A stretch of DNA of 38,745 nucleotides from Promethearchaeota archaeon (GTDB taxonomy: Archaea > Asgardarchaeota > Lokiarchaeia > Sigyniarchaeales > Promethearchaeaceae), in assembly GCA_018238965.1 (NCBI GenBank), contig JABCSI010000006.1, positions 1-38,745 of the forward strand, written 5' to 3'. Below, piece after piece: positions 21,642 to 36,947 of this stretch (positions are counted from its first letter, which is position 1; every line of letters starts with the position of its first letter). The position numbers and the translations under genes are program-made. Below the pieces are notes generated by a model, which saw only the letters and a program-made list of their open reading frames with translations, made no database searches and was not told the origin of the DNA.

Positions 21642-22559
21642 CTACATCATCTGGATAAGTTTTTCCAATTGGGTGCGTAGGATTTTTACCTTATCCTTTA
21701 ATTCGAGGACGTTGTGCACCATATGGGGATGATAACCGATCAGAATATAGAAGTTGGTTGTTTCTTTCCCCTTTACACGGTGGACGAGTAATTCCATATG
21801 CTGATTTTCGATCTCGAATTCTCCGGATTGGAGACTGAGCATTTTTGGTTCAAAAGCGGCGAAAATATCGAATGCAGCATCCTTTAACGTTGTTTGATCT
21901 ACATCTGCTTTGATAAAACTGCCGATCTCAACCAAATTATCGGAATAACACAGTACCAAATCCACTTGGTCGTGATACTTGTTTATTTTAACAAAATCTC
22001 GCAAAGCTTCAGTAATTGTGTCGGCTAATTCGCTATTGCCAATAATTGCTTTGGAAAAGGCGTGGATCACGGAGAGGGGATTAAATATCGAAGTCTCAAA
22101 CATTACCGTTTGCAAAGGTTCGGCCATCTTCATGAATTTCTGCCCCACAGTGCTGAGCATTCCTTTTAAATTAGAATCGTGCTCCATTCCAGGGTCAAAT
22201 TTATGCATGACTAGATTGAGGTGCACTTCCGGGGAATATTCCACGAGAGCATCTCTGATCATCTGAAAGTATTCGAGGGATTCCTGATAGGATGCTTGAT
22301 CTTGTATGTCAACCACAAAGAACATTTCTTCAAGGTCGCCGAAATGCATGTCGGCCAAGCGCAAATATTTTTCCCTGAATCTGGTCTGCCCCCCATAGTC
22401 CCATAAAATTAAGTCGGTGTCCAAAAAAGTGACTTGTGTTCGTTCAATTCCCTTGGTTGGTTTAAGGGTTGCAAGTTCTCCGAATTCTCGTTGGAAGGTG
22501 CGGATTAACGATGTTTTTCCCGAATTATCTATCCCCACTATGGGTATTTTATCAACCAT
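21642..22559 (-). CDS. Second Rag/Gtr-like small GTPase with roadblock-like C-terminal domain
   Basis: A 305-residue paralogue of the GTPase at 18815, about half identical by eye along its whole length. G1 is GIDNSGKTS (residues 9-17), G3 is WDYGGQ (53-58), G4 is HKFD (119-122), and the G5 region is TSIFN. The C-terminal 115 residues again fit the Rag-type roadblock-like domain, with the ending HNVLELKDKVKILRTQLEKL mirroring HNVYNVLDLKDKV in the paralogue. The start MVDKIPIVG is clear; a TTG three codons upstream aligns with the first ATG of the paralogue. It is transcribed towards the first gene. The two products could form a heterodimer, as RagA/RagC do. Both, however, keep a RagA-like GGQ. 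Confidence 0.85.
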   Translation of the reverse strand: MVDKIPIVGIDNSGKTSLIRTFQREFGELATLKPTKGIERTQVTFLDTDLILWDYGGQTRFREKYLRLADMHFGDLEEMFFVVDIQDQASYQESLEYFQMIRDALVEYSPEVHLNLVMHKFDPGMEHDSNLKGMLSTVGQKFMKMAEPLQTVMFETSIFNPLSVIHAFSKAIIGNSELADTITEALRDFVKINKYHDQVDLVLCYSDNLVEIGSFIKADVDQTTLKDAAFDIFAAFEPKMLSLQSGEFEIENQHMELLVHRVKGKETTNFYILIGYHPHMVHNVLELKDKVKILRTQLEKLIQMM

Positions 22560-22629: not shown

Positions 22630-22738
22630 CTTTTTTCTGTCCAACAATTTTTTCGGTTTGAAGGAAGGAGAGGTGATTCTCTTAATGGATGAAGGCAATT
22701 CATTTTTAAGTTGATCTGCGTTTAAGTATGTGAGAACC

Positions 22739-23095
22739 ATGAACATCAGTCCAGAGGCGGTTCAGTTTGCCCGTGAGAAATCTCAAGGACTGGCCGATCC
22801 CGTGATTGTGGTGTTTGAACGGGTTTATCGGGGATGATGTGGAGTATCCAAGATAGCCCAAGTAACGATACAATCTAGGGAAGAAATTCTCTTGAATTCC
22901 GACACTGGGTACGTGGAAAAAACCGTTGAAAATTGTCCTATCCCCCTTCTGTTAGAAGATAAAGTGGCCAATCTGTGGAATCACGCAAAAATTGAACTCA
23001 GTGGCTGGGCGGTGTATAGAAAACTGTTCGTGTTTAAACTAGCTCCCTATTCGAATGACAGCTATTCGCAAACCCCGGTGAAAACCCCCGAATAG
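22739..23095 (+). CDS. HesB-like selenoprotein candidate (in-frame TGA at codon 33)
   Basis: From ATG 22739 the frame reads MNISPEAVQFAREKSQG then VIVVFERVYRG, meets TGA at 22835-22837, and continues in the same frame with CGVSKIAQVTIQSREEI to TAG at 23093-23095. The total is 118 residues with selenocysteine at 33. Both sides of the TGA read as one HesB/IscA-like fold: the sequence before it ends in VYRG and the TGA is followed at once by Cys-Gly, giving a G-U-C-G site. The part after it has NCPIPLLLED and WNHAKIELSGW, as in the family. Archaeal HesB-like selenoproteins are known in methanococci and Lokiarchaeota. A TATA-like TTTTTAAG lies about 33 bases upstream. A nonsense-mutated pseudogene is the alternative. 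Confidence 0.72.
23062..23095 (+). other. Hairpin over the selenoprotein stop codon, possible SECIS-related structure
   Basis: CTATTCG (23062-23068) and CGAATAG (23089-23095) form a perfect 7-bp stem around a 20-base C/A-rich loop that contains GGTGAAAACC. The stem includes the TAG stop. I cannot match it to the archaeal SECIS consensus with certainty; the downstream 3' region has other stems. Confidence 0.35.
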
Positions 23096-23250
23096 ACTTG
23101 ACGGCGAAGCCAATCGCTACATAGGGCGAGTATTATATTGTATATGATCCGCATAGCTACATGAACCATCACCGCCCAGTTAACCCGCCAAGAATAAAAT
23201 CAAAAACTTAACATTTTTTCCTACATTCAATTATTTGAGATTAGATACAT
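23096..23250 (+). other. GC-richer 3' region of the HesB-like gene with inverted repeats
   Basis: The expected place for an archaeal SECIS element. It holds a GGCGAAGCC mini-hairpin (23103-23111) and TCGC/GCGA (23114-23117 with 23126-23129). CACCGCCCAG (23170-23179) is the exact complement of CTGGGCGGTG inside the coding region (23005-23014). The segment is more GC-rich than other gaps in the window. No gene is seen. Confidence 0.35.
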
Positions 23251-24165
23251 ATGTCTGACCCTGACCCTAACCTTGACCCTAACCTTGACTCTGATCATGA
23301 TCATGATCCTGTTCTTCCAGAGACCTACAACCAGAAATCCGATAAGGAAATCTTCGAAAGAGGGCTATCGCTCTATAGTCAACGTCAGTATGCCGAAGCT
23401 CTTCCATTTTTCCACCATTTGGCAGATTCCAACTTTGAGCTGTTAAAATACTATCATCTGGGCTTAACCTATGTCCAGCTTGGGCAATTTGAAACCGGGT
23501 TAGGCTATTATCGAAGGATTCGGGAAGTACCGGCCCAGGTGCAAGGAATAGAATACGATCGAATAATGTATGGATTATATCTCAATATGGGTTCGACTCT
23601 GCAGGTTCTAGCCAAGAAGAAAGGCACAATACTCTATAACGAGTCAATTGAGTGTTATAAATATGCTTTGGATATAAAGGACAGCGATCACCGCGTGTGG
23701 AACAATCTGGGTAATGCTTATATTGAAGTTAATCGCTATTCGGATGCCATCGAAGCCCTTCAGCATGCCCTGCAATTGGAACCCGAGTATTCCGAAGCCC
23801 ACTATTCCATCTCCCTAGCGTATGAATTTTCAACCCAATACCCCCAGGCCCTGCAGCATTTGAAGGAAGCCCTGAAAAAAAAACCAAGTAATAAACTAAT
23901 TCTCAATAGAATTGCCGCAATTGAATTTGGTACTGGAAATTTTTCGCAAGCCCAACGGTATGCCGAAAAAATTCTCCAACTTTATCCCGACGATCCCACT
24001 GCTACGAAAAATTTAACCCTTGTTCTCTACAATTTAGGTGAATATTCTCAAGCTTACCAACACTATCAAAAATTTAAGGTATTGGTTCCCGATTTTGCGG
24101 ATAAGCAAGTTTTGGGCATATTTCGGGATCTGGAGAAACGAGTGAGAAGCGAAACCGAAAAATAG
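23251..24165 (+). CDS. TPR-repeat protein
   Basis: A 304-residue tetratricopeptide-repeat protein. After a low-complexity acidic start (residues 1-24, with DPNLDPNL and DHDHDP encoded by a GACCCTAACCTT repeat), helix pairs cover about residues 30-290. The clearest repeats are FERGLSLYSQRQYAEALPFF, VWNNLGNAYIEVNRYSDAI (about 150-168), AHYSISLAYEFSTQYPQAL and NLTLVLYNLGEYSQAY. TPR arrays bind other proteins, so this is probably a scaffold. It is followed after 10 bases by the APH-like kinase gene and is likely co-transcribed with it. The start ATG at 23251 follows an A/T-rich stretch with no clear SD. Confidence 0.82.
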   Translation: MSDPDPNLDPNLDSDHDHDPVLPETYNQKSDKEIFERGLSLYSQRQYAEALPFFHHLADSNFELLKYYHLGLTYVQLGQFETGLGYYRRIREVPAQVQGIEYDRIMYGLYLNMGSTLQVLAKKKGTILYNESIECYKYALDIKDSDHRVWNNLGNAYIEVNRYSDAIEALQHALQLEPEYSEAHYSISLAYEFSTQYPQALQHLKEALKKKPSNKLILNRIAAIEFGTGNFSQAQRYAEKILQLYPDDPTATKNLTLVLYNLGEYSQAYQHYQKFKVLVPDFADKQVLGIFRDLEKRVRSETEK

Positions 24166-35265: not shown

Positions 35266-36947
35266 ATGACCTCGCAACAAAACTTGTCTGTACGGGAAGA
35301 ATGGAGAGATGTCTCCGATGCTGACACCCCTCCAACCTGTTGCCCGAGCTGTGGGGCTCAAGAATTTACTAGGAGTACCTACTATTTTCGCGATCTCCAA
35401 GAACTCGGAAGCCCAGTAGTAGTTAGAAAGGTGAGATATGAAGCAGTGACGTGGAAATGTAAACACTGTCAAGCTTCATTTGCTTTCCACAATCCTTTGA
35501 TACCCCTAAGAACTCCATATATGCCAGAAATAGTGGAATATGTTAAGCACAGAGTGATAAAGAAAGGAGATTCTTCAAGACGAGTGGCGGAAGATCTCAA
35601 ACAACTTCACAATGTCACGATTTCTGATGACACCATTTTAACTTGGGTCAATCCCAAACCAAAAACTCCTGAATCAACGAAAAATGCATCGTTTTCCTTT
35701 AAACCAAATACAGATTTTACAAAAAGCCCATTGGTGGAAGATTTCTCTGGGGTTTTGGGGATAGATGGGACATTTAAAGCGGTAAAAGCAAAAAAAAACG
35801 AACGGCCCGGGGTCGAGAGCGAGCCATTCTTATTGCATCTGACCCATCTACCGGACGGGCGCTTGGTGGCGTACTGGCAACCGGCGAAAACGAAAAAGAA
35901 GTTGCACAATTCCTCCAAAACCTCAAAGTGATCTTACAGAAAGAACCATTCTTTGCGATCTGTGATTTCGGAGCATCACTGTTGAGTGGAATACGAGCTG
36001 TGTTTCCAAATATTCAAATTGGTCATGATTACTTCCATACTGCTAAGTTACTTAATGAAGGGCTCCTTAAGGAGATGAGGCAGCTCAGGAAACATGCATA
36101 TACCAATCCAATAAAAGAGTATCATCTTGCTAGGAAAGCTTCTCAGATGGCAGTGAAATCAAAAATTCTCCCATCTATCCAATTTAATGACTCATTTCTC
36201 CAAAAAGCATGGGGCTTTTACCACAATCTCCACAGCTTAGTATCGTCGTCCTCAGTCAATCATTTTATCAAAAATTGGAATGACTTGAAAGATCTCCAAA
36301 CCACTAATAGTTGGCAACTGGGTCTTCAGATCATCCAAAAAGTGGAAGCATCCATTCCTTTGTGCGGGTTTACTCGAAAAAACTATCTAAAATATTGGGA
36401 AATCACCTGTAATGCTTGGAGAGGATCTATTCGTAATGAACGAAATACTCTTGAAGAGAAGCAAAAGGGGTATTCCAAAGCGTGCTATCGTGTTCTCATG
36501 AATCCGAGCAATATGAACCAGAGAGATGAACAAAAACTTCGTGAATCTTTAAAAAAGTTTCCTTTTTTAAGAGACATCAGGACTTGTGTGCGAGAATTTC
36601 ACTATCAATTTAAGACAAAAAAATCAAATTGGCGATCTTTGGCCTTTCTTCAAAAAGTGATCAATGAAAAGTCACATAAAGGTCTTAAATCTGCAGTTAG
36701 AACCCTTATAGGTGCAGAATCACGCATATTTGCCTACCGCGATATTCTGGTCAAACATCCCCATTTGATGAAGGGAAAAAGTATTCGCACTAATCGGGAA
36801 GAATTAAACCGGAAAATCGGGTTAGTGGCGCGGAATCAATATGGACTTCGCTCGACTTCGGGAGCATGTGTGCGAATCGCCGGGGTCCTAAACTGCAGCG
36901 TTGTATCATCTGAGGCACTTTGGAAAAAAGAGAAGAAAGAACTATAA
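35266..36947 (+). CDS. DDE transposase, two reading frames joined by a -1 shift at A9
   Basis: The first frame (35266-35931) holds an N-terminal zinc ribbon (CCPSCG and WKCKHC), an HTH-like part and the first catalytic Asp (D167, GIDGTF). The second frame is open from 35778 to 36947 and holds the second Asp (ICDFGASLL), HDYFHTAK and the last Glu (REELNRKIGLVARNQYGLRS). The frames join at nine A (35790-35798). The 0-frame codons AAA AAA AAC form the slippery heptamer A AAA AAC, followed closely by the GC-rich GAACGGCCCGGGGTCG. A -1 shift there yields about 560 residues, with KKRTARGRERAILIASDP across the junction. Alternatives are transcript slippage or a fresh one-base mutation. Confidence 0.75.

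Follow-up and report, generated by a model that had tools for sequence, protein, structure and literature searches.

A UGA-containing gene of Candidatus Harpocratesius as a very probable selenoprotein gene of a Lokiarchaeia family remotely related to HesB/IscA

The locus and its reading frame

The DNA analysed here, called the window throughout, is a stretch of 38,745 nucleotides that forms contig 144 of a metagenome-derived assembly (3.85 Mb, 374 contigs, 87% complete) of an archaeon of the genus Ca. Harpocratesius, which NCBI places in Promethearchaeia, Promethearchaeales, i.e. Lokiarchaeia. Its forward strand carries a frame that opens at ATG 22739, meets its sole internal stop at codon 33, a TGA (22835-22837) directly followed by TGT (22838-22840), and ends at TAG 23093-23095, giving 118 residues when read through. 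The initial annotation had described this frame as broken by the TGA alone and then continuing with TGT, and its coordinates and codons were exact; it had also expected a standard gene caller to return at most a C-terminal fragment from 22892, and ORF calling indeed yielded TTG 22892-23095 alone, a product of 67 amino acids. The features of the locus are as follows.

21642..22559, - strand: upstream gene for a Gtr1/RagA-like small GTPase (Pfam PF04670), a partly conserved neighbour, also found beside L061 and L058
22739..23095, + strand: predicted coding sequence of a HesB/IscA-like selenoprotein with selenocysteine (Sec) at position 33, from the read-through translation and from whole-domain homologues that share the TGA codon
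22835..22837, + strand: UGA codon, putatively Sec33, aligned with the invariant cysteine of the IscA GGC-x-G motif (TGA in 21 genes; C in paralogues L062 and L097; hhalign)
22838..22840, + strand: Cys34, vicinal partner of Sec33 in the motif YRGUCG, from the sequence
23055..23101, + strand: candidate eukaryotic-like SECIS element of type II (the scanner's top match in the window; fold; 3.2 bits in the family covariance model)
23093..23095, + strand: stop codon TAG of the selenoprotein gene, within the candidate SECIS element, from the sequence
23251..24165, + strand: downstream gene for a TPR-repeat protein (Pfam TPR), a conserved neighbour, also found beside L061, L058, L059 and L060

The synteny of the selenoprotein gene is common to Harpocratesius and Prometheoarchaeum. 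A second ATG, at 22685 and behind the Shine-Dalgarno-like AGGAGAGGUGAUU, opens the same frame, which reads as a 9-codon leader because it meets a TGA at 22712-22714; the starts of homologues coincide with the position of ATG 22739. The region 22661-22739 possibly encodes a leader peptide, or else an N-terminal extension that lacks conservation and contains another UGA. Elsewhere in the window, two overlapping ORFs at 35266-36947, the second of which matches the ISL3 transposase domain PF01610, suggest a split or frameshifted transposase.

Conservation of the UGA codon across the phylum

To delimit the family, 228 genomes of the phylum were searched with a profile and the hits translated directly; an alignment-based scan of contigs, which needed close sequences, returned four loci. 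In total, 21 TGA-containing genes were found in 13 genomes, the window's gene included, and homologues of its read-through product match both sides of the TGA (E-values down to 1.7e-26) with TGA at the same codon in each. Four of the genes sit on one 4.36 Mb contig, the genome of Ca. Harpocratesius repetitus FW102 (G088), from the same genus as the window, and G089-G091 are MAGs of the same taxonomic family named Ca. Prometheoarchaeum sp.

The residue after the predicted Sec varies among paralogues and may be C, U, S or G. Sec-Cys-Gly is the site of 14 of the 21 genes (GUCG, SUCG and the NUCG of L051, a long-branch and uncertain member counted among the 14), USG that of three (L045, L048, L049) and UGG that of one (L046). 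The remaining three have two consecutive TGA codons (GUUG), each gene being followed by a eukaryotic-like SECIS element: L064 (G090 C34:15179-15484), L065 (G091 C211:2571-2876) and L066 (G088 C1:2668775-2669080). Read as selenoprotein genes, they apparently encode vicinal Sec-Sec proteins in three genomes. The comparison for Cys or Sec at this site in other Asgard genomes, which the initial annotation had proposed as a check, came out in its favour, with TGA in the 20 other genes and Cys in two related paralogues, L062 (own genome, C4:701-997; KDCFG) and L097 (Harpocratesius; HDCFG). The motif DCFG is conserved in these two Cys paralogues. Six further loci (L047, L050, L052, L053, L054 and L056) encode a small protein that is present in several genomes of the sister family f3 and bears the motif PGCP[KR]CNSS; these GCPKC proteins matched weakly and were left out of the membership, and they are perhaps CxxC relatives of the selenoprotein family.

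Seven pairs of close relatives, compared downstream of the TGA, gave dN/dS values of about 0.01-0.3 (in the pair L037/L038, dS is 0.55 and dN 0.007), which indicates that translation continues past the TGA under selection.

Decoding of the UGA codon

Components of selenocysteine synthesis were identified in the window's own genome. A tRNA-Sec with anticodon UCA (C150) scored 60.3 bits, over the cut-off, and SepSecS (C93) scored 440 bits; a PSTK-like kinase (C161) reached 107 bits at an E-value of 2e-30, below the strict cut-off, and SelD (C339) has its own in-frame TGA in the motif HGUSCK. Across the phylum, SepSecS is present in 132 of 228 genomes and in 10 of the 13 that hold the selenoprotein family, the other three (G085, G090, G158) having a completeness of 66-81%. 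The search for Sec genes advocated by the initial annotation thus recovered tRNA-Sec, SepSecS, a PSTK-like kinase and a Sec-containing SelD, but a search with a bacterial SelB model did not identify EFSec in this genome, which is 87% complete. The matches of that search, which were set aside, were EF-1alpha, IF2-type proteins, a CysN-like protein and a protein that fits SelB best and lacks a P-loop. L106 (own genome, C299:21098-21745) is EF-Tu-like, with SelB as its best model and no P-loop.

Selenoprotein genes of Asgard archaea mostly carry eukaryotic-like SECIS elements, defined by AUGA, an upper stem of 7-15 bp, a loop starting with adenines, GA and, in some, an apical ministem (PMC11227280). 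With a pattern scanner, 19 of the 21 family genes were found to have such an AUGA_GA element at their end or shortly beyond it, the window's included, and none at L061 or L042; L061, the nearest homologue of the window gene, thus has no clear SECIS element. Eleven of the 35-nt elements align gap-free, with AUGA, AAA and GA invariant, and all eight pairs are changed on both sides, with a covariation score of 1.07, compared with 0.27 after shuffling and no more than 0.39 after sliding of the alignment. Stem cells are paired in 95.5% of cases, a figure that is partly built in because the elements were chosen for forming stems; the case for SECIS elements is better made by their position, length and loop adenines, all of which recur. 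The covariance model built from the relatives recovers the unseen elements of L065 and L064, as well as that of selD in the window's own genome at an E-value of 0.01. In L058 and L060, the UGA stop is no more than a few bases away from the SECIS AUGA; the window's gene, for which the corresponding AUGA is out of frame, continues through the SECIS to TAG.

The window's candidate, 23055-23101, has the sequence AUGACAGCUAUUCGCAAACCCCGGUGAAAACCCCCGAAUAGACUUGA, begins about 220 nt past the Sec codon and covers the last 13 codons and the stop. Its layout, which is that of the published type II, comprises AUGA, an interrupted 9-bp stem, the unpaired CAAACCCC, a ministem GGU-GAAA-ACC and UGA; it folds by pairing CUAUUCG with CGAAUAG plus two pairs across a bulged A, leaving a 20-nt loop that contains the ministem. 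It is the top scorer on both strands of the window (77 kb), where scores of at least 16 occur at 0.05 per kb in shuffled sequence; the candidate had already been spotted by eye when this scanner was written, so the ranking is not fully blind. An earlier whole-fold scanner missed it because the ministem leaves too small a loop. The type I family covariance model from the relatives did not recognise it, at 3.2 bits, and for this reason it is given as a candidate; no credible RNA family was found near the gene with Rfam. The SECIS search that the initial annotation had called for therefore yielded the window's top match, but in the form of an atypical element with a low score in the family model, a good candidate rather than a proven SECIS.

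These observations bear directly on whether the TGA is a codon at all. In a pseudogene, a HesB-like gene containing Cys would have acquired it recently by nonsense mutation, for instance from TGY to TGA, as would suit a frame broken by a single TGA with an atypical SECIS candidate at its end; a recent mutation is nevertheless contradicted by the same-codon TGA in 20 other genes of 12 genomes, by purifying selection past the TGA in relatives and by the Sec machinery in the same genome. We consider this explanation very improbable: by the conservation of the TGA, 22739-23095 is not a pseudogene, as the initial annotation had argued from the lack of a second disabling change across 118 codons. 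A one-base sequencing or assembly error, conceivable in a metagenome assembly of 374 contigs, deserves hardly any weight, as TGA stands at the homologous codon in independent assemblies, among them the single-contig 4.36 Mb genome.

A different kind of alternative accepts read-through but has UGA read as an ordinary amino acid (e.g. Trp or Cys, by a near-cognate tRNA), a reading that draws on the missing identification of EFSec with the bacterial SelB model. The presence of tRNA-Sec and of Sec synthesis genes, the classic Sec site of the genome's own SelD, the SECIS-like elements after the genes and the Cys that otherwise occupies the site all speak against it, and we regard it as highly unlikely. 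We are thus confident, to a degree approaching certainty, that the gene at 22739-23095, from the genus Ca. Harpocratesius, is intact and encodes a selenoprotein, that its UGA is translated as Sec by means of a SECIS at the gene end and that its product derives from IscA/HesB. Both the Sec coding and the homology are established by comparative evidence, as predictions drawn from sequence. The initial annotation's view of a probable selenoprotein is borne out by the TGA shared by 21 genes in 13 genomes, the Sec machinery, the SECIS-like elements and the selection after the TGA. In the proposed mechanism, UGA 22835-22837 would be decoded as selenocysteine by a tRNA-Sec that is charged by way of PSTK and SepSecS, with SelD supplying the selenophosphate, and the eukaryotic-like SECIS at 23055-23101 would direct the insertion.

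Kinship and probable role of the product

Taken alone, the window protein has no Pfam match, PF01521 included. The best-matching named model is NF041239 (NCBIfam CC/Se motif family (seleno)protein), with an E-value of 2e-5 and 24.6 bits, under the curated cut-off of 40 bits; it matches 15 of 17 family members, at least one of which (L024) is above the cut-off at 45. TIGR01911 (HesB_rel_seleno) has no match in the window's own genome or in the 17 family members. PF01521 touches seven of the 17, with E-values of up to 1 and 7.9e-6 at best, and a search with it picks up the TGA-bearing L092 in G081 at an E-value of 1e-4. Aligned as a family to the IscA proteins of Asgard archaea with hhalign (P 4.2e-4, probability 34%), the sequences place Sec33 on the invariant cysteine of GGC-x-G. 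A PDB profile search with the family gave no match, and an AlphaFold model (five sequences) reached a pLDDT of 52, without a Foldseek match in the PDB at an E-value of 0.001; as the predicted structure is poor and has no PDB match, the fold assignment rests on sequence profiles. The HesB/IscA kinship is best described as a remote but consistent homology, predicted at the level of the family. The HesB/IscA-like domain claimed by the initial annotation holds in this sense, through hhalign and the PF01521 matches, but not for the window protein by itself, which matches neither PF01521 nor TIGR01911.

Of the three cysteines that characterize IscA (that of GGC-x-G and a C-terminal CxC), the first is replaced by the predicted Sec, and the C-terminal pair is missing throughout the selenoprotein family. 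The product would therefore be a single-domain IscA/HesB-derived protein, in which Sec takes the place of the first conserved cysteine in a Gly-Sec-Cys-Gly site and the CxC has been lost. The loss of the C-terminal ligand pair and the conversion of the site into a vicinal Sec-Cys make it unlikely that the product is a classical Fe-S scaffold, and we infer that it is most likely a redox or soft-metal-binding protein using its Sec-Cys pair. Our best guess is a selenenylsulfide redox pair or else a soft-metal ligand, and the Sec-Sec version in three genomes points to the same role.

Relation to known selenoproteins and significance

Several known proteins resemble the product in part. The Moor_selen_rel family of NF041239, predicted in Moorella thermoacetica, agrees with the window protein in length and motif region, but its motif is CxxU, with no archaeal mark in Table 1 of a 2026 review (PMC13188914), whereas Sec comes first, as UCG, in the window protein. 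The HesB-like selenoprotein of methanogens (TIGR01911) is likewise archaeal and IscA-related, with Sec at a U-x-G site; its motif is UxGP (PMC13188914), whereas the window protein has V in place of P after UCG. In Methanococcus maripaludis, this HesB-like protein was found by 75Se labelling and no function was assigned (PMC11097638). IscA/SufA/HesB proteins (PF01521; PDB 1r94, 1nwb, 2d2a) show remote profile similarity, with Sec falling on their GGC-x-G cysteine, but they possess both the first Cys and the C-terminal CxC.

A survey of over 400 Asgard genomes described seven selenoprotein families, SelD, FrhA, HdrA, FrhD, Prx-like, AhpF-N and DsbA-like, and named five of them, with no HesB, as reported earlier in Lokiarchaeia (PMC11227280). 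The window family shares the decoding system and the eSECIS-like elements of this selenoproteome but lies outside the seven, and the statement of the initial annotation that HesB-like selenoproteins are known in Lokiarchaeota finds no backing there. Small proteins recoded at UGA and accompanied by an eSECIS-like element are thus of a known kind. What appears to be new, within the literature searched, is that Asgard archaea have this family and that some of its members carry tandem UGAs.

The family adds one to the seven published Asgard selenoprotein families. Its genes contribute 19 more SECIS elements of the eukaryotic-like type, many of which are clean and show covariation, from archaea that, as relatives of eukaryotes, are used for tracing how the eukaryotic SECIS originated. 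Genes of this sort, the window's included, are overlooked or cut short by standard gene calling. A broader proposal, to which we would give even chances, is that Lokiarchaeia underwent a lineage-specific radiation of IscA-derived selenoproteins, in which the Fe-S site was turned into GUCG, Sec-Ser, Sec-Gly or GUUG. Such a site would be a redox switch of the selenenylsulfide or diselenide type or else a ligand for soft metals, and two adjacent UGA codons would share one SECIS. The natural tandem-UGA genes of this family make processive Sec insertion testable in archaea.
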